Translations under genes and position numbers: made by a program
Assembly: GCA_944323615.1 (NCBI GenBank)
Contig: CALUTG010000003.1
Span: 19,862-83,861, forward strand
DNA length: 64,000 nucleotides
Origin: Candidatus Gastranaerophilales bacterium
GTDB lineage: Bacteria > Cyanobacteriota > Vampirovibrionia > Gastranaerophilales > Gastranaerophilaceae
Direction: 5' to 3'
Shown here: piece by piece, positions 48,964 to 63,829 of the stretch
Layout of the letters: the number at the start of each line of letters is the position of its first letter
Numbering within the stretch: position 1 is the stretch's first letter
Notes under the pieces: model-generated
What the model saw: only the letters and a program-made list of their open reading frames with translations
Told to the model about the DNA's origin: nothing
Database searches by the model: none

Positions 48964-49575
48964 TTACATAGAAAGACATGTGAGCGCTTTTCTTAGAATT
49001 TCTTCCGGATTTGAACTGTCATTAATTGTTTTTATAACCTTGCTTAAAGCATCTTCGATTTCTTTATCCTCATATCCGAGAGAAAGGAGAATGGACTGGG
49101 TATCACTTAGAGCAGGTGTTTGCGGAAGAGTCGAAGAGGCTGTTCTCGGCAGTTCCGTTTTCATCAGTTTATCTTTGAGTTCAAGAATGATTTTTTGTGC
49201 AAGTTTAGGACCGACTCCTTTTGCACGGGTGAGCTCTTTATAGTTGCCGTCAATAACAAATGAGATTAAATCACAGGTGTCAAATTCATTAAGCAGCGCA
49301 AGAGCCATTTTTGCCCCGACACCGGAAACAGAAAGAAGAATCTGAAAAATGTCTCTGGTTTCTTTTGTGGAAAATCCGTAAAGAGCCATAATATCTTCCC
49401 TGTGAATAAGTGTCAGGTAAAACTTTTGTTTTTCTTCTTCAGAGGGAGCTGCGCTAGAGAAATCTTTTTCAGTGACTTCAAACATATAACCAACGCCAGA
49501 AGCCTCCAGTGTTATAAAAGTTCCCTTAGAAGTTTTCCTTTTATCAGTTAAAAAACCTTTTATATAATCAAACAT
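48964..49575 (-). CDS. ruvA: Holliday junction DNA helicase subunit RuvA
   Basis: 203 residues, standard length. The OB domain (MFDYIKGFLTDKRKTSKGTF), double HhH motifs (LLSVSGVGAKMALALLNEF; LTRAKGVGPKLAQKIILELK) and the C-terminal RuvB-binding helices (ILLSLGYEDKEIEDAL) are all present. RuvA binds four-way junctions and loads RuvB. GAGGGGATTT precedes the ATG. ruvB is not adjacent. Confidence 0.96.
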   Translation of the reverse strand: MFDYIKGFLTDKRKTSKGTFITLEASGVGYMFEVTEKDFSSAAPSEEEKQKFYLTLIHREDIMALYGFSTKETRDIFQILLSVSGVGAKMALALLNEFDTCDLISFVIDGNYKELTRAKGVGPKLAQKIILELKDKLMKTELPRTASSTLPQTPALSDTQSILLSLGYEDKEIEDALSKVIKTINDSSNPEEILRKALTCLSM

Positions 49576-49624
49576 AAATCCCCTCTATAATAATTATATA
49601 ATAAAAACAGGGAATAAAAAACTC

Positions 49625-49653
49625 TTTACAATCAGTTATGTTTTAGTTATTAT
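49625..49653 (+). promoter_or_regulatory. Promoter of tRNA-Ser
   Basis: TTTACA (49625-49630), 17-base spacer, TATTAT (49648-49653), 28 bases before the tRNA. Confidence 0.55.
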
Positions 49654-49680
49654 AAATAAGCAAACCGAAGAATGCACTTC

Positions 49681-49770
49681 GGAGGAGTGCCAGAGCGGTT
49701 GATTGGAGCGGTCTTGAAAACCGTCGTACGTGCGAGCGTACCGTGGGTTCGAATCCCACCTCCTCCTCCA
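49681..49770 (+). tRNA. tRNA-Ser (anticodon UGA)
   Basis: Acceptor GGAGGAG (49681-49687) pairs with CTCCTCC (49760-49766). The anticodon loop CTTGAAA carries TGA at 49715-49717. A long variable arm (GTACG...CGTAC) and T arm GTGGG-TTCGAAT-CCCAC follow. CCA is encoded at 49768-49770. The discriminator reads T rather than the usual G, which is unusual for tRNA-Ser. Next comes a terminator. Confidence 0.95.
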
Positions 49771-49773
49771 TTT

Positions 49774-49808
49774 AAAAAGCCCGAACCATAAAGGTTTTGG
49801 GCTTTTAA
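49774..49808 (+). terminator. tRNA-Ser terminator
   Basis: AAAAAGCCCGAACC (49774-49787) pairs with GGTTTTGGGCTTTT (49793-49806). Confidence 0.75.
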
Positions 49809-50067
49809 TATTATATGTATATGTGTATTGAAGTGAGTGTTTTGCGTAGGGCAGATGGTGCGATTATTTCGGGCAATCGGCTTGTGTGGCGGATTTAGTG
49901 GGTTGGAAATAATCAAACCATGTGAACCATAATTACTCTTTTTACTCTCTGCCGGTCTGTTAAATTTTTTAATTGATACGAAACCGACACAATGCTCGGA
50001 AGTGGTGTTCCAATTCTTCATCTTCAGAGTTAATGTGTGTGTACCATGAATGAATATATAAATATAA
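49809..50067. other. Gene-free stretch after tRNA-Ser
   Basis: No convincing frame, hairpin or repeat was seen. It lies between the tRNA terminator and the Mu-type remnant. A leftward open frame covers this stretch and the tRNA but is spurious. Confidence 0.55.
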
Positions 50068-50325
50068 GCAGCTTCTAGCTTCTCACTCGTTGAAAAAGCC
50101 GGTGCAAGCACCGCTTTTAACTCGTTCGCCCCTATTAAAGAAATCGCACAGGCTAAGGGTTTGAAAAGTACTCGTTCAATCCGAATGGAAATCAACAAAT
50201 CTGAAAGCAAATATATTTCAAGGGAAGTCAAAGTTAACGGCGGTATCTCATACGAAATATTGTTTTCGTTTATAGTGAGTTTTGAAGAAATCATTAGTCT
50301 GACTGAAAATTTTTTAGGGGGTTAA
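50068..50325 (+). pseudogene. Remnant of a Mu-type transposase DNA-binding domain
   Basis: 85 codons read open from just after a TAA (50065-50067) to a stop at 50323-50325, without a start codon. The product contains FAPIKEIAQAKGLKSTRSIR, then KYISREVKVNGGISYEILFS, which resembles the HTH_Tnp_Mu-type N-terminal domain of MuA-like transposases (keIA-x-x-kg...sR-x-x-x-GrgGk-x-YeilfssL). Everything after that domain is missing. It looks like a decayed mobile element next to the tRNA. The identification is by motif recall. Confidence 0.5.
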
Positions 50326-50366
50326 CCACCCGGAATAGTTTGTAAGTCAAGGAAAGGAGCGAGAGA

Positions 50367-50909
50367 ATGACTACAGTAGAACCTATCAGAAATATTGAAA
50401 GCATCAAAAAATTAGAAAAGTATTTTGCAAAACATAGTCCGAGAGATTTGTTATTATTCACCATCGGTACAAATTGCGGATTAAGGATTTCAGACATAGT
50501 AGCCCTGAATGTCGGAGATGTCAGAAACAAAAGCCATATTCAGATTATTGAAAAGAAAACCAGAAAATTTAAAAAGTTTCCGATTAATTCTAAGCTAAAG
50601 CCTATGATAGAAGAATTTACAAAGGGAAAACACTCCGATGAGGCTTTGTTTGTTTCCATCTTTAAAAACCGGCTTGATAGATTTGGGGCATATTATATTA
50701 TTAAAACAGCCTGCCAAACTGTTGGCATACAAGAAATAATAGGAACACACACGATGAGAAAAACATTCGGGTATCATCACTACAAAAAATTTAAAGATAT
50801 AGCCATGCTGCAAAAGATTTTTAATCATTCAAACCCGAATATAACGCTGAGGTACATCGGTATTGAACAGGAGCAAATCGACGAAAGCTATAATAACTTT
50901 ATTTTATAA
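50367..50909 (+). CDS. Tyrosine recombinase, catalytic domain only (FimB/FimE size)
   Basis: 180 residues. All catalytic positions are visible: R40 (CGLRISDI), a Lys in IIEKKTRKFKK, H128-x2-R131 (HTMRKTF), H154 (NHSN) and Y163 (LRYIGI). There is no N-terminal core-binding domain, so the size equals FimB/FimE-type inversion recombinases rather than phage integrases. A GGAAAGGAG site precedes the ATG. Perfect 20-bp inverted repeats lie 55 bases after its stop, and a surface-sugar operon follows. It is therefore a likely DNA invertase for that promoter segment. Confidence 0.88.
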   Translation: MTTVEPIRNIESIKKLEKYFAKHSPRDLLLFTIGTNCGLRISDIVALNVGDVRNKSHIQIIEKKTRKFKKFPINSKLKPMIEEFTKGKHSDEALFVSIFKNRLDRFGAYYIIKTACQTVGIQEIIGTHTMRKTFGYHHYKKFKDIAMLQKIFNHSNPNITLRYIGIEQEQIDESYNNFIL

Positions 50910-51308
50910 TTCTTGAATTCTCTATTTAGAATGGGAAACTTAACATTTTATTATCTTAACAGAATAGCCATTATGTGAAGAGCATATTTTCACACTTGCT
51001 AAAACCTATGTTATCATAAATAGAAATAGAATTTTGTATTTATTAAAAAATGTTATAGATTCCCATTTTTTTTAAACAACCACCCTTAAAACCCTTTTAA
51101 ATTTGTTTTTTTTGCTCTTCACATAATGGCTAAAAAGTTAAGAGGTTATTTCTAGAAGTGATGTTAAAGAGAATCTTTCTCGGAAAGTAATTAAGTAGTA
51201 GTAGGAATTAGTTTACCAATAAAAAATAAAAAAGTGAGTGGTGTGAAATATAAAATTGTGTGACAGTATTAGGAACCACTTTTGAAATTAAACACAAAGA
51301 GGCGAACC
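50910..51308. other. Intergenic control region of the sugar locus
   Basis: 399 bases between recombinase and glycosyltransferase. It holds the invertible element and, after it, about 175 bases of leader with a small GAGA/TTCTC hairpin near 51167-51181. No strong fixed promoter was found between the right repeat and the first gene, so expression may depend on the element. Confidence 0.6.
50965..51132. promoter_or_regulatory. Probable invertible promoter element (20-bp inverted repeats, 128-bp core)
   Basis: TAGCCATTATGTGAAGAGCA (50965-50984) is repeated exactly in inverse orientation at 51113-51132. The 128 bases between are AT-rich. On the minus strand they hold TTGTTT (51079-51074), 16 bases, TATAAC (51057-51052); weaker rightward boxes also exist (TATAGA at 51054-51059). 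A tyrosine recombinase gene on one side and an operon on the other is the classic fimS-like layout. In the orientation given, the better promoter points away from the operon, suggesting OFF; this is inference. Confidence 0.75.
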
Positions 51309-52349
51309 ATGTACAACAATAGTTTAAATAACAAATTAGAAATATTTTTAATAACATTCAATAGGGCTTCAAAGTTGGAGAATACACTGAAACAACTATT
51401 AGATATAAGTTCTCCGATTAAAGACTTTTCTATAACTATTATTGACAATAATTCTAATGATAATACATCTCTTGTTGTTCAGAAATATCAATCACAGCAT
51501 AATAATATTCAATATATAAAAAATAAATATAATATTGGTGGTAATGCAAACATCGTTAAAGCTTTTTATAAAGCAACAAAAGAATATGTTTGGATACTTG
51601 CAGATAATGATGATTATTCTTGGGAGAATTGGAATCAAGTAGAGAAAGAAATAAACAATCAGGCTGATGCAATCGTTGTAGCAACTTACGAGTGTCCAAA
51701 ATTTGACATTGCACAATTGTTTTTACAAACAACATTTTTACCGGGGGTAATTTATAAAACTTCCAATATTGACGATACTGTGATGGGAAATATGGAATTC
51801 AATATTTCAAATCTGTTCCCGCACTTAGCTTTGTCTGCAAAACTTATTAATGAACATAAAAATATTGTAGTTTTAGATGCTCCCATTGTTTTAATAGGTA
51901 AAAATGGAGATGAAAGAGGCAATTATACTTATACAAGAGGATATAAAGGTTTTGTGCACCCGCTGCAAAAAGGCATGAGTTGGATTAGCGGATATGCAAA
52001 TTCATTATATTTAATAAAAGATTTAAAACTAAGAAATTATATAATTTCACATAACAGATATTGTACCGAATTAAATTCTGCAAAACTATTTTTCTATAGA
52101 GACAGAGCTTCTGAACAAAATTTGTATAACTATCTATGCGTATTTGCAGTACTTTCGGTGTGGGATAAAATAAAATTTTTAATTAATTTTATTTTATATT
52201 TAACAATTTATAAAATTATTTTTGTCTATCGTAGGGATTCTTTTAAATTTGATGAGAACAAACATATTGTTAGGATTGATTTAAGACTGTTTACTTTTAT
52301 AAAAACAAAACTTTTTCAGATAACAAAGAAAATAAAAGGAGTTTATTAA
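51309..52349 (+). CDS. Family 2 glycosyltransferase
   Basis: 346 residues from ATG 51309, chosen for the AGAGG six bases upstream; a TTG 27 bases earlier is weaker. The GT-A fold is seen in LEIFLITFNRASKLENTLKQ, ITIIDNNSNDN, and the metal-site region WILADNDDYSW. The C-terminal third is hydrophobic/basic (FLINFILYLTIYKIIFVYRR), suggesting membrane association. It probably adds a sugar to a surface glycan. First gene of the operon; its stop overlaps rfbF. Confidence 0.82.
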   Translation: MYNNSLNNKLEIFLITFNRASKLENTLKQLLDISSPIKDFSITIIDNNSNDNTSLVVQKYQSQHNNIQYIKNKYNIGGNANIVKAFYKATKEYVWILADNDDYSWENWNQVEKEINNQADAIVVATYECPKFDIAQLFLQTTFLPGVIYKTSNIDDTVMGNMEFNISNLFPHLALSAKLINEHKNIVVLDAPIVLIGKNGDERGNYTYTRGYKGFVHPLQKGMSWISGYANSLYLIKDLKLRNYIISHNRYCTELNSAKLFFYRDRASEQNLYNYLCVFAVLSVWDKIKFLINFILYLTIYKIIFVYRRDSFKFDENKHIVRIDLRLFTFIKTKLFQITKKIKGVY

Positions 52350-53149
52350 TGAAAGTAGTTATACTTGCAGGTGGTCTCGGAACAAGATTATCTGAAGAAA
52401 CAAAGTTAATACCAAAACCAATGGTTGAAATTGGTGGAAAGCCAATTTTATGGCATATAATGAAGACCTATTCTTATTATGGTTTTAATGACTTTATTAT
52501 TTTGACGGGGTATAAGTCTCATATTATTAAAGATTATTTTGTTCACTATTATCAAAGATATTCTGATGTAACTGTCGACATGCTTAATAATACTGTAGAT
52601 ATTCATAGAATAGAGACTGAACCTTGGAAAGTCACAATGCTTTATACCGGTGAAAATACTATGACAGGCTCAAGGATAAAAAAGGCCCAGAACTATCTTG
52701 GTAATGAACCTTTTATGCTTACATACGGTGATGGTGTTAGCGATATTGATATTAATGCTTTATTAAAATGTCATAAATTTAGTGGGAAATATTTAACTTT
52801 AACTGCTGTAAAACCTAGCGGTAAGTTTGGAGCTTTAGACATTAATTCGGATGGTACAATTAGTAGTTTTACAGAAAAACCGCAAGGTGATGGCAGTTGG
52901 ATTAATGGCGGGTATATGGTTTGTGAACCGGAAATATTTAATTATATTGAAGCAAATCGTGATGATGTGATTTTTGAAAGAATACCTCTGGAAAATTTAG
53001 CGCAAGACGGACAGCTAAATGCATATAAACATTATGGTTTTTGGTATCCTATGGACACCCTAAAAGGCAAAAAGGATTTAACTGCAATGTGGCAAAGCAA
53101 AAAAGCACCTTGGGCAAAATGGTTAGATAAAGAACCTATAAAACTTTAA
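52349..53149 (+). CDS. rfbF: Glucose-1-phosphate cytidylyltransferase
   Basis: 266 residues, normal length. VILAGGLGTRLSEETKLIPK, PMVEIGGKPILWHIMKTYS and the later LTYGDGVSDIDINALL and GSWINGGYMVCEPEIFNYI are characteristic of RfbF/DdhA. It makes CDP-glucose from CTP and glucose-1-phosphate, the entry step to CDP-3,6-dideoxyhexoses. One-base overlap (TAATG) with the glycosyltransferase. Confidence 0.95.
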   Translation: MKVVILAGGLGTRLSEETKLIPKPMVEIGGKPILWHIMKTYSYYGFNDFIILTGYKSHIIKDYFVHYYQRYSDVTVDMLNNTVDIHRIETEPWKVTMLYTGENTMTGSRIKKAQNYLGNEPFMLTYGDGVSDIDINALLKCHKFSGKYLTLTAVKPSGKFGALDINSDGTISSFTEKPQGDGSWINGGYMVCEPEIFNYIEANRDDVIFERIPLENLAQDGQLNAYKHYGFWYPMDTLKGKKDLTAMWQSKKAPWAKWLDKEPIKL

Positions 53150-53162
53150 GGAGGTATGTATT

Positions 53163-53359
53163 ATGCAAGAAAAAGATAGAATTGAAAGATTAAAAAACTA
53201 TTTAAGGGAAAGACGGCAAATAAAACTGGGGGAAATGAACGATTCTAAATTGGATACAATACATTTTTTGATGTTGGGGACTTGACAAAAATTATATACA
53301 CCTTGGATTGGGTATTAGCTGACGCTGATGCAAATTTTTTGGGAGTAGATGATGTTTAA
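53163..53359 (+). pseudogene. Small gene interrupted at a six-T run (frameshift or phase-variable)
   Basis: A strong GGAGG site precedes ATG 53163. The frame encodes 40 residues (MQEKDRIERLKNYLRERRQI ...) and stops at 53285. Adding one T to the TTTTTT run at 53264-53269 would continue the frame to a 66-residue protein (…FFDVGDLTKIIYTLDWVLAD…) ending at 53359, overlapping the rfbG start. The second half reads as a plausible protein, so the gene is either broken, misread in sequencing, or switched by slippage. Function unknown. Confidence 0.6.
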
Positions 53360-54440
53360 TAATGTTTATAAAAATAGACGAATATTTTTAACAGGGCATA
53401 CTGGCTTTAAGGGCAGCTGGCTTACTCTATGGTTAACCAAACTCGGAGCAGAAGTTTGCGGTTATTCTCTAGTTCCAAACACGACTCCATCGATGTATGA
53501 AGAAATGGGTATAAATGCCAAAATTTCCAAATCAGTATTTGGAAATATTCTTGATACCGTTAATCTTGAAAAGACAATAAATAATTTTCAACCAGATGTT
53601 GTTTTTCATCTGGCTGCACAGCCTCTTGTAAGACTTTCATATTATGAGCCTGTACTTACTTATCAAACTAATGTTATTGGCACTTTAAATGTATTGGAGG
53701 CAGCAAGAAAATGCAAGTCGGTTAAGGCTTTTGTAAATGTTACTACAGATAAGTGTTATGAGAATATTGAAGCAAGATGTGGTTATAAAGAGGATGACGC
53801 CATGGGAGGTTACGATATGTATTCAAGCTCCAAAGGTTGCGTTGAGATTATGTCATCCTCTTTCAGACGATCATTTTTGCAAGAAGAAAATTCTATGGCT
53901 ATGGCAACAGCAAGAGCCGGGAATGTAATAGGCGGAGGAGATTGGGCGCTTGACAGACTTATACCGGATTGCATAAAGGCAATAAACAGCGGACAAAAAA
54001 TAGAGATAAGAAATCCAATAGCAGTTCGCCCGTGGCAGCATGTTTTAGAACCTTTATCAGGCTACCTGCTATTAGGTGAGAAACTTCTTCAGGAAGGGAA
54101 TAGATACGCGGAAGGCTTTAATTTTGGCCCGAACGAGGAAAGCGTGTTGAGTGTAGCAGAAGTTACGGATAAGGTTTGTAAATTCTACGGCAAAGGCGAA
54201 GTGGTTATACATAAAAAAGATAATTTGCATGAGGCAAATTTGTTAATGCTAAATATAGAAAAAGCCGAAGGGATATTAGGTTGGACACCAACGTACACAG
54301 CAGAAAAAGCAATCGAAGAAACAGTTAATTGGTATAAATATTTTTATGAAGGCAAAAAAGATTTATATGAATTTACAGTAAAACAGATTAAAGATTATGA
54401 GGAGAGTATTGCATGGAGCAAGAATTACGCAATAAAGTAA
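53349..54440 (+). CDS. rfbG: CDP-glucose 4,6-dehydratase
   Basis: 363 residues. Rossmann motif FLTGHTGFKGSWLTLWLTKL, then HLAAQPLVRLSY, VTTDKCYEN and the catalytic YDMYSSSKG (Tyr-x3-Lys) identify an SDR-type RfbG/DdhB. RPWQHVLEPLSGYL is typical of the CDP-glucose enzyme. It makes CDP-4-keto-6-deoxyglucose. It overlaps rfbH by 28 bases. Confidence 0.95.
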   Translation: MMFNNVYKNRRIFLTGHTGFKGSWLTLWLTKLGAEVCGYSLVPNTTPSMYEEMGINAKISKSVFGNILDTVNLEKTINNFQPDVVFHLAAQPLVRLSYYEPVLTYQTNVIGTLNVLEAARKCKSVKAFVNVTTDKCYENIEARCGYKEDDAMGGYDMYSSSKGCVEIMSSSFRRSFLQEENSMAMATARAGNVIGGGDWALDRLIPDCIKAINSGQKIEIRNPIAVRPWQHVLEPLSGYLLLGEKLLQEGNRYAEGFNFGPNEESVLSVAEVTDKVCKFYGKGEVVIHKKDNLHEANLLMLNIEKAEGILGWTPTYTAEKAIEETVNWYKYFYEGKKDLYEFTVKQIKDYEESIAWSKNYAIK

Positions 54441-55783
54441 AAGAGGCTGCAAAAGAATATTATAAAGAAATTTATGGCAAGAAAAGAGAGTTTGATTATA
54501 TTCCACCATCAGGAAAACTTTTGGGAGAAGAAGAACTGCTTAATATGATAGATGCTTCTCTGGATATGTGGTTGACCGCAGGACGGTTTAATAAAGAATT
54601 CGAGTCAAAATTTGCCAAATATATGGGCGTAAAATATGCGCTATCAACAAATTCGGGTTCAAGTGCGAATTTACTTGCCTTTTCTGCTTTAACTTCTCAT
54701 AAGTTGGGCGATAGAGCATTGAAAAAAGGTGATGAGGTGATTTCTGTAGCCGCAGGTTTTCCTACAACAATTAACCCGATTATTCAGAATGGAATGGTTC
54801 CTGTTTTTGTTGATTGTGAAATCGGAACATACAATATTGATGCAGAAAAGATTGAAGAAGCTATCACTCCAAAAACCAAAGCAATCTTTTTAGCTCATAC
54901 TCTTGGTAATAGTTATGATTTAGACAAGATTATGGAACTTGCCGGGAAATATAATTTATGGGTAATAGAAGATTCTTGTGATGCATTAGGCGGCGAATAC
55001 AAAGGTAAAAAAATCGGCACAATTGGTCATATTGGAACATTTAGTTTTTATCCGGCGCATCATCTTACAATGGGCGAAGGCGGTGCAGTAATAACAAATG
55101 ATCCGCAATTATATAAAATTATTATGTCATTTAGAGACTGGGGAAGAGATTGCTGTTGTCCTCCTGGAAAAGACGGGGTGTGCGGTAAAAGATTTTCACA
55201 ACAATTGGGAAATTTGCCGTACGGTTATGACCATAAATACACTTATTCACATATTGGTTTTAATCTCAAAATCACTGATTGGCAAGCGGCATTAGGGTGT
55301 TCTCAAATTGAAAAACTCGATGGATTTTTGAAAAGACGTAGCAGAAATGCGCAGTTGCTTACAGAGAGTCTCGCTGATTTGCATGATTTTCTGATTTTGC
55401 CTGTTGTAAAAGAAGGGGTTAAACCTTCGTGGTTCGGGTATTTAATTTCTGTAAAAGAAAACGCCCCTTTTACAAAACAAGAATTGGTTGAGTATTTGGA
55501 AAATCATAAAATTGGCACAAGACAGTTATTTGCAGGAAATATCTTAAGACAGCCAATGATAACGGAGGATGAACGGGTTTTGTTTAGGATTGGTAATTCT
55601 AAATTACTAAGTTCAAAAGACTTATCTGAAGAATGGTATGCAAAACTTCCAAATACAGAATTTATTATGAACAATACATTTTGGGTAGGAACTTTCCCTG
55701 CACTGGGTGAAAATGAAATTTTGAGAATTTCAAATACAATACACGAATTTGTAAATAACAAGAGGAGAGTTGAATGTTATTAG
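54413..55783 (+). CDS. rfbH: CDP-4-keto-6-deoxyglucose 3-dehydrase (E1)
   Basis: 456 residues of the DegT aminotransferase fold. At the cofactor position the sequence is FYPAHHLTMGEGGAV, with His where aminotransferases have Lys, the hallmark of E1 dehydrases that use PMP. The CCCPPGKDGVCGKRF segment supplies cysteines of the [2Fe-2S] cluster. It removes the 3-hydroxyl and needs electrons from a reductase. The usual E3 reductase (DdhD/RfbI) is not in the window; the next gene, overlapping by 10 bases, encodes a ferredoxin-like protein. Confidence 0.95.
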   Translation: MEQELRNKVKEAAKEYYKEIYGKKREFDYIPPSGKLLGEEELLNMIDASLDMWLTAGRFNKEFESKFAKYMGVKYALSTNSGSSANLLAFSALTSHKLGDRALKKGDEVISVAAGFPTTINPIIQNGMVPVFVDCEIGTYNIDAEKIEEAITPKTKAIFLAHTLGNSYDLDKIMELAGKYNLWVIEDSCDALGGEYKGKKIGTIGHIGTFSFYPAHHLTMGEGGAVITNDPQLYKIIMSFRDWGRDCCCPPGKDGVCGKRFSQQLGNLPYGYDHKYTYSHIGFNLKITDWQAALGCSQIEKLDGFLKRRSRNAQLLTESLADLHDFLILPVVKEGVKPSWFGYLISVKENAPFTKQELVEYLENHKIGTRQLFAGNILRQPMITEDERVLFRIGNSKLLSSKDLSEEWYAKLPNTEFIMNNTFWVGTFPALGENEILRISNTIHEFVNNKRRVECY

Positions 55784-56742
55784 ATTTATTTAAGGGAAAA
55801 AAATGTTTTAAATTAGTTTGTGGAGCAGGAAATGAAGATGCTATCGAAGTAGAAAAACTTGTTACATTATATTCTAAAGCAGGCTGCAATTTTTTTGACT
55901 TATGTGCAAAGCCTGAAATCGTTGAGGCTGCCAAGCGAGGCTTAAAAAGAGCAGGAATTAGTGAAAACAGATATCTTTGTGTAAGTGTTGGTATAAAAGG
56001 GGATCCACACGTTAGTAAAGCATTAATACATTCTGAAGAATGTATTAAATGTGGAAAATGTAATAGTGTATGTTTGCAAAAAGCACTTATAGAAAAAGCT
56101 GATTCATACGAAGTTAATACTACCAGATGTATTGGCTGCGGCAGATGTGTTCAAGACTGTCCTAAAAAATGTATAGAAATGACAAGTGCATTTAAAGATT
56201 TAAAAGAAGTTCTACCGCCTATTATTGAAAAAGGTATAGACTGTATTGAGTTTCATGCCCTCGGTGAAAATGAGGATGAAGTTGACGAAAAATGGAATGA
56301 TATTAACAGCTTGTTTAATGGACCATTAAGTATATGTATTGATCGTTCAAAATTAGGGAACGAACGAGTTTTAAAACGTATTAATAGAATGCTCGAAAAA
56401 CGTAGTCCGTATACAACAATAATTCAAGCCGACGGTGCTCCAATGTCAGGTGGTAAAGATGATTTTAAAACAACACTGCAAACAGTGGCAATGGCAGAAA
56501 TTTTTCAAAATGCAAAACTTCCTGTTTATTTGTTACTATCAGGCGGTACAAATTCAAAATCTACAGAACTTGCAAAATTATGTGATATAAATGCCGGAGG
56601 TGTAGCCATAGGCTCGTATGCAAGAAAAATAGTCCGTGAATATATTGATAGAGATGATTTCTTAGAAAATGAAGAGGCTTTTTCTAAGGCATTGGCTATT
56701 GCCAAAAATCTTGTAGATGTTTCAATGGAGTATTTAGGATAA
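55774..56742 (+). CDS. LdpA-like two-[4Fe-4S] ferredoxin protein
   Basis: 322 residues. The start CFKLVCGAGNEDAIEVEKLV ... YSKAGCNFFDLCAKPEIVEA resembles cyanobacterial LdpA. Two clusters follow: C90-x2-C93-x2-C96-x3-C100 and C119-x2-C122-x2-C125-x3-C129. The C-terminal ~190 residues look barrel-like (GGKDDFKTTLQTVAMAEIFQ, LPVYLLLSGGTNSKSTELAK). LdpA is known as a redox-linked clock-input protein in cyanobacteria. Here its place next to rfbH suggests it could pass electrons to the E1 dehydrase. That role is inference. Confidence 0.75.
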   Translation: MLLDLFKGKKCFKLVCGAGNEDAIEVEKLVTLYSKAGCNFFDLCAKPEIVEAAKRGLKRAGISENRYLCVSVGIKGDPHVSKALIHSEECIKCGKCNSVCLQKALIEKADSYEVNTTRCIGCGRCVQDCPKKCIEMTSAFKDLKEVLPPIIEKGIDCIEFHALGENEDEVDEKWNDINSLFNGPLSICIDRSKLGNERVLKRINRMLEKRSPYTTIIQADGAPMSGGKDDFKTTLQTVAMAEIFQNAKLPVYLLLSGGTNSKSTELAKLCDINAGGVAIGSYARKIVREYIDRDDFLENEEAFSKALAIAKNLVDVSMEYLG

Positions 56743-57497
56743 TGGTAAGTTTATATACAAAAGACTGGGAACTAAACGGTATCGAAACTGTTTTATTTGA
56801 TAAAGACGGCACTTTTATCGATTCTCACGTTTATTGGGGAAGAATAATTGCGCTCAGAGTTCGTGCAGTAATGGATTTTTACGATATTGAAGATGAATAT
56901 TTTGACGAATTATGTTTGTCTCTAGGATATGATACGACAAATAAAATTCTTGTGGAAAAGGGACCTATTGCATTGTTAGCACGAGAGGCGGTCATTAACT
57001 CTTTATTAGCTCAGCTAAAAAAATATAATATAAAAGCCGACTCTGACAAAATTGCAAATATATTTAAAGATGTGCATAGTGGATTTCTAAAAGAAATTTA
57101 TGATTACGTTAAACCGATAAAAGATGCAGAAGTTTTGTTTAAATCTCTTAAAGAACAAGGTGTAAAACTTGCTGTTGTAACTTCTGATATGAAAGCAAAT
57201 ACTGATGCAATTTTAGAAAGAACAAAACTTGCACAATATTTTGATTTGGTAATTGGTAAAGATGATTGTACCAAAGCTAAAAAAACGGGAGAACCAGCTC
57301 TCATTGCCTTAAAAATGTTAGGTGCAACATCGAATACGACTATTTCGGTTGGTGATGCACCTATGGACTATGAAATGGCAAAAAATGCAGGATTAAAAGG
57401 TTCAATACTGGTCGCAACCGGACAAATTCCTGTAAATAAATTGAAAGAACTTACTTATACAACTGTTCATACATTAAAAGAGGTAATGGTTAAATGA
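56742..57497 (+). CDS. HAD-family phosphatase
   Basis: 251 residues. HAD motifs are complete: VLFDKDGTFIDSH (motif I Asp-x-Asp), VVTSDMKANT (II), KAKKTGEPALIALKML (III Lys) and SVGDAPMDYEMAKNAG (IV). The helical cap between I and II points to the phosphoglycolate-phosphatase-like subclass. It shares its first base with the previous stop region and overlaps the next gene by 4. Probably dephosphorylates a sugar intermediate; substrate unknown. Confidence 0.87.
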   Translation: MVSLYTKDWELNGIETVLFDKDGTFIDSHVYWGRIIALRVRAVMDFYDIEDEYFDELCLSLGYDTTNKILVEKGPIALLAREAVINSLLAQLKKYNIKADSDKIANIFKDVHSGFLKEIYDYVKPIKDAEVLFKSLKEQGVKLAVVTSDMKANTDAILERTKLAQYFDLVIGKDDCTKAKKTGEPALIALKMLGATSNTTISVGDAPMDYEMAKNAGLKGSILVATGQIPVNKLKELTYTTVHTLKEVMVK

Positions 57498-59206
57498 CGA
57501 AAATATTAGACTGTACGATTAGAGATGGTGGGCACTTAAATGGATGGAATTTTTCCGAGGCTTGTGTAAGAGCTTCATATTTTGCCGCAGTCAAGGCAGG
57601 GGCTGATTATTTTGAAATTGGGTACCGTTTTGAAACGCCAAAACCCGACTGGGGAAAATTCGCCAAGTGCGATGATGATTATATCTTTACACTTTTTGAA
57701 CCGAACGAAAAATGTAAACTTTCAGTCATGATTGACGCAGGTAAATCAACATTAGATGATTTTAGAGAATGCAAACCGGATTTAACACCAATTAGTTTAG
57801 TTAGAGTTGCAACCTACCCGCAAAAACTTGACATTGCATTTGAACTTGCTGAAGGTCTTAAGGCGAAAGGCTATGAAGTATTTTTGAACTTGATGGCAAT
57901 TTCTGAATATAAAGAAGAACATTTTAACCAAATCAAAAATTGGAGAAATAAAAATCTAATTGATGCGGTATGTTTTGCTGATAGTTTTGGATCTTTTATT
58001 CCTGATGATATTTTGAAATATCAAAAAATATTAAAAGACATAGGATTTAAAAATATTTGTTTTCATTCACATAATAATTTACAGCTGGCATTCGCAAATT
58101 CCATTAAAGCATTAGATGCGGGATTTTATTGTATAGATGCCTCAATTTATGGAATGGGCAGAGGTTCGGGAAATCTTCCTATAGAAATAATGACAGGATA
58201 TTTGAATAAAACAGGGCATAAAGAATATAACCCGGTTGCATATATAGATGTCATTGAACGATTCTATTTGGAGCTTTCCAAAGAAACCCCCTGGGGATAT
58301 CGAATTCAGTCACTAATCGGAGGATTAAAAAATATTCATCCTTATTATGTTAATGAATTATATGAAAAAAAATCTTTTACAATAAATGAAATTTGGAATG
58401 CTGCTGGACTTGTAAAGAAGAATGCCCCTATATCGTTTAGTGCTGATAATTTGAATAATGTATTGTCTGATAAATTTGTTAACTATGATGATATTAAAGT
58501 TAGGAATAAACTTTATATTCTCCCTGAAGAAGATGCATTCACGCAAAATAAAGTTGAATTCAAAAATTGTCATAAAGGAAGAAACTTTTTAATAATTGCA
58601 AACGGTTCTTCTATACTTGAAAACAGAGAAAAAATACAACATTTTATAAAAGACAAAAATTGTATTGTCATAGGTACAAACTTTTTAAATCATCTTTTTA
58701 TCCCTGATTACCATTGTTTTATAAATAGAAAAAGATTTTTAAAATACATTGAAAGCGTAGATAAAGAATCAACACTTCTACTTCCCTCATACTTTGGAAG
58801 AAAACTTGTAAAGGAAAACACAAAAAACAATGTACTCTATTTCGATGCGGAACAAAATGAGGATATAAATAACGTTGTATTTAAGGGAGATAAACACGTA
58901 TACAAATACTTAAATGTTGCAATATCTGCAATTTATTGTGCGTATCAAATGGGTGCAAAAGAAATATTTACTGTAGGATTAGACGGTTTTGGAGAAAATG
59001 CTGAAAAATTAGAATTCTTTTATAAAGAGGATGATGTTTATGATAATAAATCTGAACTAATGAAGGCTTATGAAGAATTTACTGTTAACTTGGATATAGT
59101 AAATAAATTTTTAGAAAACGAATCAATTCCATTTTCTATTATAACCAAAACTTCTCATGACAAATATTACAGCGATATTTTGGAGGATAGAGCTTATGCC
59201 ATTTAA
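57494..59206 (+). CDS. HMGL-type aldolase fused to DUF115-like domain
   Basis: 570 residues. Residues 1-300 are a DRE-TIM barrel: ILDCTIRDGGHLNGWNF (Arg-Asp pair) and the metal site CFHSHNNLQLAF, as in 4-hydroxy-2-oxovalerate aldolases. Residues about 355-560 (FLIIANGSSILENREKI, CIVIGTNFLNHLFIPDYHCF, FTVGLDGFGENAE) resemble the DUF115/MptE-like nucleotide-sugar-associated domain. The fusion suggests a carbon-carbon-forming step linked to glycan assembly. It overlaps both neighbours. The exact substrate is unknown. Confidence 0.75.
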   Translation: MTKILDCTIRDGGHLNGWNFSEACVRASYFAAVKAGADYFEIGYRFETPKPDWGKFAKCDDDYIFTLFEPNEKCKLSVMIDAGKSTLDDFRECKPDLTPISLVRVATYPQKLDIAFELAEGLKAKGYEVFLNLMAISEYKEEHFNQIKNWRNKNLIDAVCFADSFGSFIPDDILKYQKILKDIGFKNICFHSHNNLQLAFANSIKALDAGFYCIDASIYGMGRGSGNLPIEIMTGYLNKTGHKEYNPVAYIDVIERFYLELSKETPWGYRIQSLIGGLKNIHPYYVNELYEKKSFTINEIWNAAGLVKKNAPISFSADNLNNVLSDKFVNYDDIKVRNKLYILPEEDAFTQNKVEFKNCHKGRNFLIIANGSSILENREKIQHFIKDKNCIVIGTNFLNHLFIPDYHCFINRKRFLKYIESVDKESTLLLPSYFGRKLVKENTKNNVLYFDAEQNEDINNVVFKGDKHVYKYLNVAISAIYCAYQMGAKEIFTVGLDGFGENAEKLEFFYKEDDVYDNKSELMKAYEEFTVNLDIVNKFLENESIPFSIITKTSHDKYYSDILEDRAYAI

Positions 59207-59939
59207 AGATGTCATTAAAAACAAAAAACAAATGATAGGAACTTGGTGTATAATACCTTCACCTGAAGTTGTTAATGTCCTTTGTAAATCAGGATTAGAC
59301 TTTGTCTTGGTTGATTTTGAGCATAGTCCTGTAAACTTTGAAACTGCTCAAAAGATGGTTATGGCAGCACATGCTGAACAGAAATACGCAATTTCTCGTG
59401 TTGGAAAACTTGAGGAAGTTGAAATTTTAAGGAGTCTGGACATTGGTTCTGATGGAATTATTGTTCCGCATATTGAAAGTCTAAATGATGTAAATCAATG
59501 TTTAGAATATATAAAATACTTTCCAGAAGGTAATAGAGGTTATTCACCGTATACGAGAGCGGGTGGATATTGTGTTAATGCAGATTATACAAAAAATGCA
59601 AATAAAAATATTCTTTTCGGAATAATTATTGAAAGCAAAAAGGGAATTGATAATCTTGATGAGATATTATCAAGTCCGGATTTGGATTTAGTTTATCTTG
59701 GAGCTTACGATATATCAATATCATTAGGTTTAGCAGGACAAATTAATCATCCTAAAGTTGTAAAAGTTTTAAATCAATGTATTGATAAAATCATAAAAGC
59801 AGAAAAAATTGCAGGTGCAATGTATCATGCCCAAAAAGATTATGAAAGATTAACTAAACAAGGAGTTAATTTTCTTGTATACAAAGTTGATTCCTTAATT
59901 ATTAATGAAGGTTTGGAAGAAGTAAGAAAGGTAAAGTAA
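59196..59939 (+). CDS. HpcH/HpaI-family aldolase
   Basis: 247 residues from ATG 59196, chosen for the GGAGG ten bases upstream; a longer frame from 59157 has no ribosome site. VNVLCKSGLDFVLVDFEHSP, ISRVGKLEEVEILRSLDIGS and IIESKKGIDNLDEIL, LVYLGAYDISISLGL match the metal-dependent pyruvate aldolase family (Glu/Asp metal ligands). These cleave or join pyruvate and an aldehyde. Next to a pyruvate-using ThDP enzyme this could supply or consume pyruvate. Role inferred. Confidence 0.85.
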   Translation: MPFKDVIKNKKQMIGTWCIIPSPEVVNVLCKSGLDFVLVDFEHSPVNFETAQKMVMAAHAEQKYAISRVGKLEEVEILRSLDIGSDGIIVPHIESLNDVNQCLEYIKYFPEGNRGYSPYTRAGGYCVNADYTKNANKNILFGIIIESKKGIDNLDEILSSPDLDLVYLGAYDISISLGLAGQINHPKVVKVLNQCIDKIIKAEKIAGAMYHAQKDYERLTKQGVNFLVYKVDSLIINEGLEEVRKVK

Positions 59940-61705
59940 TGAATGTTTCAGAATATATAATGGAAAGATTAGCTGATGCCGGAGTAGAAAAAATTTTTAT
60001 GGTATCGGGTGGCGGAGGGATGTTTCTTATCGAAGCATTAGGAAATAATCCGAGGATTCAGCATGTGAGTAATCATCATGAACAAGCTTCTGTTATGGCC
60101 GCTGAAGGCTATCAAAGAGCTACAAGAAACTTGGGTGTGGCTCTTGTAACAACCGGTCCCGCTGCAACAAATGCTTTAACCGGTGTTTGTTGCGCTTGGA
60201 ATGATTCAATCCCAATGATGATTCTTTCCGGACAAGCGAAAACTCCGACATTAATAGGTGATACAGGAATGCGTCAAAGAGGAACTCATGAAGTTAATAT
60301 CACACCTATTGTTGCACCTGTTACTAAATATGCCGTAACAATTAAAGATGTCAAAGAAGTACGATATCATTTTGAAAAAGCTTTATATCTTGCAAAAAAT
60401 GGTCGTCCCGGACCCGTTTGGCTTGATATACCGTTAGATATTCAATCGGCAGAAATTAATCCTGCTGAATTAAAAGGATATGAACCTGAAAAAGTAACAT
60501 ATGATTTAAAACTTGATAAATTATATGCATTATTAAAAGAAGCAAAAAGGCCTTTAATACTTGCAGGGCAAGGTTTGAAACTTTCAAAAACTGAAGAAAT
60601 ATTTTTAAATATTGCCGAAAAATATAATATTCCTGTTGTGACTCCGAAGAATGGGTTTGATATGATATGGGAAGAACACCCAATGCTTGCAGGCCGAATT
60701 GGAATAAATGGTCAGCGTGCAGGTAATCTTGCTGTCCAAAATGCGGATTTCTTGCTTATTTTAGGTGCCAGACTTCCCCTTGTTACTGTTGGGTATGAAA
60801 CTGAGTTATTTGCCCCTAATGCTAAAAAGGTAATTATAGATTGTGATAAAGCTCAATTAGAGCATTGTTGGATTCATACAGATTTACAAATTGAAGCAGA
60901 TTTAAAAGAATTTATGCCGGCATTGGAATTGAAATTAAAAAATGAAGATTACAATTACAATTCTGATTTTTGGGTTAAAAAAGTTCAAGGTTATAGAACA
61001 AAATATCCAACAGTAACAAAGGATGTTATCAAACAGAAAAAATATGTTGATTCATACTTCTTTTTTGAAAGATTGTCACATTATATGAATCCTGATGATG
61101 TTTTAGTGACTGACCAAGGCGCAACTTTTTACTCTATAACAACAGCGTTTAAAGTAAAAAAAGGACAATTGGCGTTTACTAACGGTGGTTTTTCGCCTAT
61201 GGGTTATGGTCTGCCGGCGTCTGTAGGTTGTGCGTTTGCAAAAGGCGTTAACAGAGTTGTTTCTGTCAATGGAGATGGCGGCTTGCAGATGAATTTGCAA
61301 GAATTGCAAACAATAATCCATCATAATTTGAATATGAAGGTATTTGTATTCAATAATGATGGATATTTAAGTATTAAACACACTCAAACAAATTTCTTCA
61401 ATGGTCATTTAGTTGGGTCAGATCCTAAAAGCGGGGTTTCTTGTCCTGATAGTATAAAATTAGGAAAAGCTTATGGATTTAAGACTTTTAGAATAAAAAA
61501 TCATAAAGAAACCGATAAAATAATTAAAAAAGCAATGGAAACAAAAGGTCCTGTTTTGGTTGAAGTTATGATAGATCCAATGCAGCCATATTATCCTAAA
61601 GTTTCATCAAAAAAACTTCCTGACGGAACATTTAAATCGCAGCCGTTAGATAATATGTGGCCGTTTTTATCAGAAGAGGAAATGAGAGAAAACAGAAGGG
61701 TTTAA
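59939..61705 (+). CDS. ThDP-dependent acetolactate-synthase-like enzyme (YerE-like role proposed)
   Basis: 588 residues with three ThDP-enzyme domains. N-terminal: VSGGGGMFLIEAL and NHHEQASVMAAEGYQR with catalytic Glu48. Middle: PLILAGQGLKLSKTEEIF. C-terminal: VNGDGGLQMNLQELQT to VFVFNNDGYLSIK, the GDG-x26-NN ThDP site. Housekeeping acetolactate synthases lie with ilv genes; this one is in an RfbFGH cluster, as is YerE of Yersinia, which adds a two-carbon unit from pyruvate to CDP-4-keto-3,6-dideoxyglucose. Generic 2-ketoacid decarboxylation is the alternative. Confidence 0.8.
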   Translation: MNVSEYIMERLADAGVEKIFMVSGGGGMFLIEALGNNPRIQHVSNHHEQASVMAAEGYQRATRNLGVALVTTGPAATNALTGVCCAWNDSIPMMILSGQAKTPTLIGDTGMRQRGTHEVNITPIVAPVTKYAVTIKDVKEVRYHFEKALYLAKNGRPGPVWLDIPLDIQSAEINPAELKGYEPEKVTYDLKLDKLYALLKEAKRPLILAGQGLKLSKTEEIFLNIAEKYNIPVVTPKNGFDMIWEEHPMLAGRIGINGQRAGNLAVQNADFLLILGARLPLVTVGYETELFAPNAKKVIIDCDKAQLEHCWIHTDLQIEADLKEFMPALELKLKNEDYNYNSDFWVKKVQGYRTKYPTVTKDVIKQKKYVDSYFFFERLSHYMNPDDVLVTDQGATFYSITTAFKVKKGQLAFTNGGFSPMGYGLPASVGCAFAKGVNRVVSVNGDGGLQMNLQELQTIIHHNLNMKVFVFNNDGYLSIKHTQTNFFNGHLVGSDPKSGVSCPDSIKLGKAYGFKTFRIKNHKETDKIIKKAMETKGPVLVEVMIDPMQPYYPKVSSKKLPDGTFKSQPLDNMWPFLSEEEMRENRRV

Positions 61706-61708
61706 TAA

Positions 61709-63829
61709 ATGAATAAATTTATATCTAAAATAAGAAATGAAATAAATATTAATTATTTGCTGGGTTTAGGCATATCAATAATTGTTCCTTTACTCATTAT
61801 GCTTTTATATTGGAATAAATCTATTGCTAATTATGATGGTTGGTACAATTTGTATGCACAAGATTTTTTAAATGGACGCCTTCCATATCGGGATTTTCAT
61901 TTTTTGATGCCTCCGGTATTTTTATACATTTGGACAATAATACAAAAAATTTTTGGAGACAGTTTAATAGTTTTCCATACAGCGTCCGTTGTTTGTAAAT
62001 GTTTATTCTCAGGGGCTTTGTATTATACTTTTACCCGTTTCTATAACTATAAAATAAGCACTGTTGCAACACTATTTTCTTCCGCTATAATGCTTATGCC
62101 GCCGTTTGATAATTGTACATTTTCTTATAATGAAGTTGTTCCATTAATATGTGTTATATTAATAAATGTCCTTATAAGTTTTACCAATATACTGTATTGT
62201 CAACGCAAAATAAATTATCAACTTATTATTTTGTTGGCTGTAATAAATACAATTTTATTTTTCACTAAACAAACTTATGGGATAATTGTGCCATTAGGCT
62301 TTTTAATTATATATTCTCTGATATTGCTTGTAAACAGCAATATAAAAACCTATCTTAAAACATTATTTGTATATTTCTTAACATCATTTGTAACCAGTAT
62401 CATTATATTTTTGCCGATTCTTAACAAAAATATCATAACACTTTATGTGTCTAATGTTTATTTGGGTGCATCTGCAAAGGGTTCGGTAACAGATATTTTA
62501 ACACTGCCATTGAAAATTATTTCCAGTTATACGTATATTTGGCCTTTGTTTATATTAGCTGTGGCTATTTTTGTCCTTTTAATTCTGAAAGAATATAATA
62601 TCCTACAAATGAAAACAATGTCCCAAAAGGCTAAGTCTGTTTATATTCCTAATTTTTATATTATTTTAGTTTTTAGTATTTTTACGATATGCGCGGTATT
62701 TTTTCTAAATAAAATTCTGGTCTCCAAAACCAATTTATTAGGCATAATGTATTCAACCCGTTTAATGATTGATCAAATAGGAGCAATAGCCCAGTATGTT
62801 ACTTTCTTTACCGCACTATTCTATTTTGTAAGATTTTTTATAACAAAAAGCAATCATGATGCAAAAAGATTAATTCTTTTTGGTATTTTTACATTGGCGT
62901 TTATATCAATAACTTTTTCTTACGCTTGGCCATATATGTCATACTTCATATATGGTCTCCCGTTATGTATGTTGTTGAATTATAAAAACAAATTTCAACC
63001 TCTAATTGAAATAGTTTCTTTTTTATTTCTTATGTTATTAATATTCTTGGTGAGTTGGTCGAAATGTATGGTACCATTTACTTTTCACGGATATTCCAGT
63101 GTGAATGTTGCAACAGAAAGAAAAGTTTCTAAATTAAAATTTTTAAAAGGATTTGAACTTTCGAAACAAGAGGTCGATATATATGAAAATATTTATGAAA
63201 TACTAAATAAATATTTGGAAAAAGATGATAAAATATTTTGTTTTATAAATAACACTTTATTTTATAAATTATTCGACAGAGAGCCGTTTTATGACGACAA
63301 TTATAATTTATATTGGGATATTTCTCCCGATCTTCAGACTAAAGAGATATACGACAAACTTTCCTTAAGCTCTGGACTAAAAAGACCTAAAGTTATAATT
63401 TATTTTGAAAATCCTGAGTATTGCATAAGTTTTCATGAAAAATATTTCAGAAACAGAAGTAAGGATAACTATCAGAGAAAAATTGATATATTATTAAAAA
63501 CCTTTATAAAAAATAAAGATTATGTTGTCGTAAAAAATTATAATTCCGATAATTTTTATAAAAACAATTTAAAATTTTCTAACCAATACAAACTTATATT
63601 AAGCAAAAATAATGAATTAGAAAAGTTGTATAAAAATTATAACTATGATAAAAACTTTGATTTTAATATATATCAGAATATAACAAGACTGCAAAAAGAA
63701 ATAAATGAAATTTCAAAAAGTATTAAAAAGAATTCAAGTGATGCCGATAGATTTTTTATAGATAACACCTTTAATATAAAAATTCTGGTTCGTAAAGATG
63801 TATATTACAATGAGGTTAACAATAAATGA
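61709..63829 (+). CDS. Multi-span GT-C glycosyltransferase-like membrane protein
   Basis: 706 residues. About ten to twelve hydrophobic helices span 20-460. Near the start, IANYDGWYNLYAQDFLNGRL and PYRDFHFLMPPVFLYIWTI match the first periplasmic loop of GT39/ArnT-like enzymes (acidic residue, then LPYRD-x-x-x-x-PP). The last ~230 residues are a soluble, Lys/Asn-rich domain. It probably transfers a sugar from a lipid carrier on the outer face of the membrane. Tighter AT bias than its neighbours suggests separate acquisition. Confidence 0.75.
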   Translation: MNKFISKIRNEININYLLGLGISIIVPLLIMLLYWNKSIANYDGWYNLYAQDFLNGRLPYRDFHFLMPPVFLYIWTIIQKIFGDSLIVFHTASVVCKCLFSGALYYTFTRFYNYKISTVATLFSSAIMLMPPFDNCTFSYNEVVPLICVILINVLISFTNILYCQRKINYQLIILLAVINTILFFTKQTYGIIVPLGFLIIYSLILLVNSNIKTYLKTLFVYFLTSFVTSIIIFLPILNKNIITLYVSNVYLGASAKGSVTDILTLPLKIISSYTYIWPLFILAVAIFVLLILKEYNILQMKTMSQKAKSVYIPNFYIILVFSIFTICAVFFLNKILVSKTNLLGIMYSTRLMIDQIGAIAQYVTFFTALFYFVRFFITKSNHDAKRLILFGIFTLAFISITFSYAWPYMSYFIYGLPLCMLLNYKNKFQPLIEIVSFLFLMLLIFLVSWSKCMVPFTFHGYSSVNVATERKVSKLKFLKGFELSKQEVDIYENIYEILNKYLEKDDKIFCFINNTLFYKLFDREPFYDDNYNLYWDISPDLQTKEIYDKLSLSSGLKRPKVIIYFENPEYCISFHEKYFRNRSKDNYQRKIDILLKTFIKNKDYVVVKNYNSDNFYKNNLKFSNQYKLILSKNNELEKLYKNYNYDKNFDFNIYQNITRLQKEINEISKSIKKNSSDADRFFIDNTFNIKILVRKDVYYNEVNNK

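Follow-up and report, generated by a model that had tools for sequence, protein, structure and literature searches.

In all likelihood, the locus described here is a phase-variation switch, in which a short invertible DNA segment lies ahead of a glycan operon. It is located in the window, a 64,000-nucleotide (64-kb) stretch on contig 3 of a 1.93-Mb draft genome (90 contigs) of Candidatus Gastranaerophilales, an order in the Cyanobacteriota/Melainabacteria group, and the bacterium probably lives in a gut. A 180-aa recombinase would bind two 28-bp sites, each composed of half-sites around a TAGCCA core, and would exchange strands in the core, whereby the segment between the sites would invert. 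The inversion would turn a promoter within the segment toward or away from the glycan operon, and the operon would be switched on or off. We infer that the window's recombinase itself does the flipping. A phase-variable promoter had been proposed for this place in a first-pass annotation. The proposal is supported by the same layout in 55 of 128 loci, by segments that are reversed between collinear relatives including an ortholog, by a conserved extended -10 element in aligned segments, and by first genes that are of glycan type at 30 of the 41 loci tested.

The gene at 50367-50909 (plus strand) encodes a tyrosine recombinase of 180 aa, which comprises the catalytic domain only and is presumed to be the inverting enzyme. 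Residues 15-165 match Pfam PF00589 (Phage_integrase) with an E-value of 3.7e-24. R40, K64/K67, H128, R131, H154, and Y163 occupy the catalytic columns, and of the 120 best-listed homologs (7,419 in all) at least 119 keep these columns intact. The linked recombinase with intact catalytic residues that characterizes a tyrosine-recombinase switch is therefore present. On the Xer recombinase 4a8e (292 residues), the alignment of the family profile covers residues 111-272, and the N-terminal core-binding domain is therefore apparently absent. Both features agree with the earlier description of an enzyme with all catalytic residues and no core-binding domain. The best Foldseek match of the structure model (pLDDT 77) is XerA 5hxy.

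The recombinase is not a serine invertase of the Hin or Mpi type, since PF00589 is its sole Pfam match and no serine resolvase domain is found. Membership in the Xer dimer-resolution family was also rejected: the XerA model gives 85.9 bits against 220, the scores are well under the XerA/XerC/XerD cut-offs, and the protein apparently lacks a core-binding domain. The earlier label "FimB/FimE-sized" fits the size and the presumed action but not the family. NF007371 and NF007370, tyrosine-type DNA invertase models that we take to represent FimE/FimB-type proteins, score 38.5 and 29 bits against cut-offs of 222 and 221 bits. A tree of 140 recombinases places the window's copy in a 66-member clade (support 0.91), which holds 34 switch loci and none labelled phage-type, the labels being the analyst's. 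No strong repeats were found near the two closer recombinase paralogs in the window's own genome. The third match in this genome (L004) is distant, with 25% identity.

The exact inverted 20-bp repeats reported earlier are present at 50965-50984 (left copy, plus strand) and 51113-51132 (right copy, minus strand), separated by a 128-bp spacer. They are embedded in imperfect 31-bp arms (50954-50984 and 51113-51143) that are 87% complementary. The four mismatches all lie in the outer halves, while the core and the inner half-sites agree over all 20 bp. The pair is unique: with up to three mismatches the 20-mer occurs at two places genome-wide, both being the window repeats, and no other exact inverted pair of at least 16 bp with a spacer of 60-500 bp exists in the 64-kb window. 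No such pair occurred in 40 dinucleotide shuffles of the window.

The left recombination site (50954-50981, plus strand) consists of the outer half-site TCTTAACAGAAT, the core AGCC, and the inner half-site ATTATGTGAAGA. The right site (51116-51143, minus strand) reads in plus-strand letters as the inner half-site TCTTCACATAAT, the core GGCT, and the outer half-site AAAAAGTTAAGA. The longer core TAGCCA of the left site (50965-50970, plus strand) is common to both arms and is the probable strand-exchange region. In the right site (51127-51132, minus strand) it reads TGGCTA on the plus strand. The core is also found in relatives whose half-sites diverge, and a core lies at +597/598 from the recombinase start in 9 of 12 loci of the site table. 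By eye, the arms of relatives are quasi-palindromes with half-sites such as TCTTAAC.... and ....GTTAAGA flanking a 6-bp core, which is TAGCCA in the window and TAACCA, TATCCA, TAGTCA, or others in relatives. Half-sites around a core are the layout expected of a tyrosine recombinase core site. The exact 20-mers begin at the core and extend inward, and thus comprise the core and the inner half-site. The repeats are exact as claimed, but they represent one half of a longer 28-bp site and not the whole site.

The segment between the exact repeats (50985-51112, no strand assigned) is predicted to be invertible, since the homologous segment is reversed in loci L178, L110, and L042. It has 128 bp and a GC content of 21% against 36% for the window, in line with the AT-rich segment described before. 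The distance from the recombinase stop codon to the repeat is 55 bp, as had been given, and the repeat and the ATG at 51309 are 176 bp apart, not 177. Inverted repeats around a short segment ahead of an operon, another mark of a tyrosine-recombinase switch, are thus in place.

Reversed segments are directly observed, in near-identical collinear loci as well as in an orthologous one. The 129-bp inner segment of L053 is 100% identical in reverse to those of L054 and L055, and the loci are otherwise collinear, with through-alignments of 97.1% and 97.9%. Between L122 and L123, 189 bp are reversed at 97.4% within a collinear alignment of 94.4%. Altogether, a reversed segment with a collinear recombinase occurs in 52 locus pairs covering 34 loci, against 162 pairs in the same orientation, the pairs not being independent. 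When the window is compared to L178, which has a 96% identical recombinase, the stretch from +588 to +736 matches in reverse (81% over 149 bp), and across the right site 28 bp agree completely in the same sense. The window's segment is also reversed in L110 and L042, over shorter stretches, and lies the same way round in L039, L041, and L099/L100. Both orientations expected of a tyrosine-recombinase switch therefore occur between relatives, including the ortholog L178. In principle, RecA-mediated exchange between the repeats could also give reversed segments.

The recombinase subfamily, defined by E ≤ 1e-40, is present in 34 of the 41 genera and 137 of the 191 genomes in a sample of the family. 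In a sample of the phylum it occurs in 128 of 386 genomes, comprising 127 from the same family and one from another family of the order. Loci were taken around the best recombinase matches, for the most part from draft metagenome assemblies, and identical recombinases were removed. Among 102 distinct loci with at least 400 bp downstream and 450 bp upstream, 40 have a repeat score of at least 16 within 400 bp downstream of the recombinase. None of the 102 has such a score upstream, and shuffled sequences give 0.2 of 102 on average. The enlarged set leaves out 18 of 146 distinct loci, those with less than 350 bp downstream. Here a repeat pair lies downstream in 55 of 128 recombinase loci, with spacers of 90-299 bp (median 137 bp), and is absent at this threshold in the other 73. 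Both counts (40/102 and 55/128) are lower bounds, because the simple search misses arms that share only the core, as in L039, L099, and L178. The arm sequences vary from locus to locus yet agree inside each locus. L040 and L102 carry the recombinase with no detected repeat, and these are apparently true absences. L040 is a close homolog (94% identity) with a prepilin-like gene downstream, by eye.

Some members of the family stand apart. L159, from Helicobacter sp. 13S00401-1, has a 59% identical recombinase and a weaker repeat pair (score 15), which precedes cytidylyltransferase and nucleotidyltransferase genes. The combination suggests horizontal spread of the module. In L104, no repeat pair was detected, and the promoter element faces an epimerase-like gene, by eye. 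The locus looks like a locked-ON derivative. The contig of L181 ends exactly at the core, and on the downstream side 21 of 146 loci end within 420 bp of the recombinase. Contig ends near the recombinase fit assembly breaks at mixed orientations, but they also fit breaks at repeats, and little weight is given to them.

An extended -10 element with an upstream T-rich box is common to the 11 segments that were aligned, of which five were taken as read and six were first reversed. In the window, the conserved extended -10 element is TTTATGATAACAT at 51008-51020 on the minus strand, where it reads away from the operon. It is predicted to be the operon's promoter. A sigma-70 consensus scan also found a plus-strand match (TTCACA-17-TATCAT with TG, 50989-51017) that reads toward the operon and scores 10/12. 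By eye this match is not kept in L039, L041, L099, or L180, and its -10 overlaps the same nearly symmetric bases as the minus-strand element. The earlier statement that the better promoter faces away from the operon is therefore correct for the conserved element, but the 10/12 match on the plus strand faces the operon, and the present direction of the window's promoter is less certain than that statement implies. The minus-strand element faces the recombinase, which suggests the OFF state, and the window is probably now in the OFF orientation. Because of this near-symmetry of the window's -10 region, a call of ON or OFF by motif is weaker than the evidence for inversion.

The -10 pattern was scored as TTTNTGNTANNAT. 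Within the 400 bp downstream of the recombinase, 25 of 128 loci have it in forward orientation only, 30 in reverse only, and 3 in both, while 70 have no match. This tally is not a count of ON and OFF, because in some loci (L053, L054) the match is situated outside the invertible part. On the upstream side of the recombinase, 2 loci have a forward match and 13 a reverse one. In eight loci (L017, L045, L053, L054, L057, L099, L178, and L188), the extended -10 pattern lies at about +590 to +631, after the recombinase and before the invertible part, and reads toward the recombinase gene in each. It is possibly a fixed antisense promoter.

These promoter data bear on a different reading, in which the switch is real but acts through the transcript, by a leader structure, a terminator, or antisense transcription into the recombinase, and no promoter is turned. 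As seen in the window and in other loci presumed to be OFF, the conserved element points toward the recombinase gene. A scan of 50880-51320 revealed no terminator-like site, and a transcript of the recombinase could therefore read through, which counts for such a reading. PMC7241687 suggests orientation-dependent post-transcriptional control for cwpV and flagella of Clostridioides difficile. Against this, segments of both orientations conserve the extended -10 element, and L104, without a repeat pair, keeps the element facing the epimerase-like gene, as a locked-ON locus would. Control through the transcript is unlikely on balance, though it keeps some weight.

Three sites instead of two are present in L099, L182, and L178, at about +597, +745, and +910 from the recombinase start. 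Two are direct and one is inverted, so both excision and inversion would be possible in these loci. On the left side of the core, the window agrees with L099 at 50/61 positions for site 1 and at 36/69 for site 2. To the right, it matches site 2 at 65/82 and site 1 at 52/92. With a left flank from site 1 and a right flank from site 2, the left site of the window is the expected remnant of an excision, cut within the core. This suggests that the two-site form of the window may have arisen by core-precise excision between two direct sites. The opposite direction, a gain of about 146 bp, is also possible.

A second recombinase gene of about 175 aa lies directly behind the segment in 18 loci with distinct proteins, namely L041, L042, L045, L017, L051, L057, L062, L074, L093, L099, L100, L137, L142, L145, L155, L178, L180, and L217. 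It is found in 14 of the 55 repeat-bearing loci, and its product is about 27-40% identical to the window's recombinase. Arg I is lost in 16 of the 18 proteins, the HxxR histidine in all 18, and the third histidine in 15, and the tyrosine is replaced by Phe in 12, while Arg II is kept in all 18. Among the relatives listed (the best 120 of 132), the HxxR histidine is lost in 120, the third histidine is Gln in 119, the tyrosine is Phe in 95, and the hairpin is shortened in 117. The dN/dS is 0.08-0.37 in seven pairs with usable dS. The model of the L041 protein has a confident fold (pLDDT 89), with XerA and XerH among its best matches. The residue losses, the dN/dS, and the fold together indicate that the protein is conserved and very probably no longer catalytic. 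Its gene comes first behind the switch, so that it would be produced chiefly in the ON state, and we infer that it may serve as a latch on, or a bias of, flipping.

In the window, a likely stub of this gene, comprising the leader and the first codons, lies at 51155-51227 on the plus strand, as seen in the alignment with L180 and others and from the in-frame residues ISLPIKN. A search of the window's genome at E 1e-15 detected no second-recombinase-type gene, only paralogs of the active recombinase. The window thus appears to have lost the second recombinase, and its switch would run without feedback from that protein. This apparent loss also fits a fixed remnant, that is, a switch that worked in ancestors and is locked in the window's lineage. 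The outer half-sites that differ at four positions are in keeping with such a fate, as are L040 and L102, which carry the recombinase without a detected switch. The 20-bp identity of the core and inner half-sites and the intact recombinase speak against it, and so does the ortholog L178, which has a reversed segment and an identical right site. A locked switch is rather improbable.

The operon behind the switch begins with a family 2 glycosyltransferase (51309-52349, plus strand; PF00535, E 9.6e-17) and continues as a co-directional gene run (52349-63829, plus strand) that reaches near the contig end. The run includes glucose-1-phosphate cytidylyltransferase, CDP-glucose 4,6-dehydratase, and an RfbH-type enzyme, which point to a CDP-4,6-dideoxyhexose pathway. 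The product is presumably a surface glycan with a CDP-dideoxysugar. The run also comprises an LdpA_C/ferredoxin protein, a HAD-like protein (by eye), an HMGL-MptE fusion, an HpcH aldolase, a TPP enzyme, and a membrane protein. The ferredoxin-like protein at 55774-56742 has the LdpA C-terminal domain (Pfam: light dependent period A) and lies inside the sugar operon of a relative of cyanobacteria. The protein at 57494-59206 combines HMGL-like and MptE-like domains and is followed by the HpcH aldolase and the TPP enzyme, a set that is unusual for a glycan operon.

A glycan operon does follow the repeats, as named in the first-pass annotation. The first downstream gene is of glycan type in 30 of 41 tested repeat-bearing loci, according to Pfam and the analyst's classification. 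The second recombinase was skipped in this test, and 14 of the 55 loci were outside the test or had no gene in the fetched DNA. The glycan-type set consists of glycosyltransferases, GLF, epimerase, sugar nucleotidyltransferase, bacterial sugar transferase, Stealth, capsular synthesis, LicD, and DegT. The remaining 11 first genes are DUF2229, TPP enzyme, radical SAM, Asn synthase, regulators, or without a match. L071, L085, and L152 have switch-type repeats ahead of DUF2229/HGD-D (CoA enzyme activase-like) genes and not glycan genes, as judged by Pfam for the first gene of L071 and a later gene of L085, and by sequence similarity only for L152.

In another reading, the recombinase is an integrase by which the glycan cluster was transferred as a genomic island, with the repeats as halves of attachment sites. 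A tRNA-Ser (TGA anticodon; 49681-49770, plus strand) ends about 600 bp upstream of the recombinase, and a tRNA lies within 500 bp upstream in 2 of 12 loci scanned (L110 and L183; L099 and L179, both counted among the 12, are one and the same locus). The best PHROG of the recombinase is an integrase family, and the 12 best-listed Streptococcus phage records have 47-52% identical recombinases. In the two phages that were read (L218 and L219), the recombinase gene shortly precedes terminase genes. The GC content of the operon is 32%, against 37% for bases 1-50000 of the window. However, two sites in inverted order give inversion and not excision, and the segments are reversed between collinear loci. 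No second copy of the tRNA 3′ end was found in the window, where the gene run reaches the contig end, and the fetched DNA of 10 of the 12 loci scanned contains no tRNA. Inverted repeats were also not found after the phage recombinases of L218 and L219. The chance that the enzyme acts here as an island integrase is small. An Rfam scan of 49000-52400 yielded nothing besides the tRNA. The prophage-like branch of the recombinase family comprises L046, L047, L058, L078, L086, L128, L133, and L204 and the Streptococcus phages L218 and L219, and the phage-type Gastranaerophilales copies carry repeats of similar geometry. Five of their segments were compared (L046, L047, L058, L078, and L086) and have the same sense wherever they match, so inversion in this group is not claimed. 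Finally, a chance or structural palindrome (a long hairpin) without recombination has a negligible probability: AT-rich DNA favours short palindromes, but the 40 shuffles gave no exact pair of at least 16 bp, the repeats occur downstream in 40 of 102 loci and upstream in none, and the reversed segments in relatives contradict it.

Beyond the promoter switch itself, a broader scheme can be put forward tentatively, as a possibility short of an even chance. Gut melainabacteria may have family-wide private capsule switches, with one recombinase and one site sequence per locus. Many of them would carry a dead-copy latch, the first gene of the ON state, that acts on the same half-sites and blocks or biases flip-back until it is diluted. 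The window would be a stripped form, in which the latch was lost and three sites were trimmed to two by its own recombinase.

Phase-variable surface structures shape the encounters of gut bacteria with phages and with the immune system of the host, and Bacteroides, Enterobacteria, and Clostridioides are known to have invertible promoters. If the switch is confirmed, this strategy is shared by the non-photosynthetic relatives of cyanobacteria that live in animal guts, with their own set of enzymes. Since each locus has its own enzyme and site, the family provides a natural assortment of compact 180-aa recombinases with differing target sequences. The impaired partner raises the question of whether a catalytically inactive recombinase can be the memory element of a DNA switch. 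The statement that no such switch is described in the lineage agrees with the literature searched: among the papers listed, no description in Gastranaerophilales or Melainabacteria was found. The combination of Gastranaerophilales with phase variation gave no paper, Melainabacteria with inversion gave no paper on a DNA switch as far as titles and the beginnings of abstracts tell, and the names of the lineage are absent from the text of PMC10939037. The kind of switch is already known. The enzyme lineage, the layout of one recombinase per switch, and the impaired partner appear to be new.

The Xer recombinases (XerA, XerH, and XerC/D) are the closest solved structures and sequence profiles, but the window's recombinase differs from them by its score (85.9 against 220 bits for the XerA model) and by the apparent lack of a core-binding domain. 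The fim switch of Escherichia coli (FimB/FimE) resembles the locus in that short recombinase genes adjoin a promoter segment between inverted repeats ahead of a surface-structure operon, and fimS has 314 bp with 9-bp repeats, according to PMC8777976. In contrast, the window has a 128-bp spacer and 28-bp quasi-palindromic sites, its recombinase reaches only 38.5 and 29 bits against 222 and 221 for the invertase models, and one active recombinase is followed by an impaired one in some relatives. Mpi is a serine recombinase, one invertase for many loci. Bacteroides fragilis is similar to the present case as a gut commensal with invertible, Mpi-controlled polysaccharide promoters, as given in PMC7241687 and PMC5386303, whereas the system of the window has a local tyrosine recombinase. 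In C. difficile, with its flg and cwpV switches, a 154-bp segment with 21-bp imperfect repeats was recognised through one strain that carries it reversed, which is the same logic as applied here (PMC5386303). RecV serves at least the flg and cwpV switches, whereas in the present family each switch has an adjoining recombinase. A precedent for the impaired second recombinase as a DNA-binding regulator is MrpR (YopR) of the Bacillus prophage SPbeta, which PMC10516654 describes as a repressor that has a tyrosine-recombinase fold, binds DNA, and has lost the recombinase function. MrpR, as described there, keeps the core-binding domain and controls a prophage, whereas the paralogs reported here are catalytic-domain proteins of about 175 aa encoded behind invertible segments.
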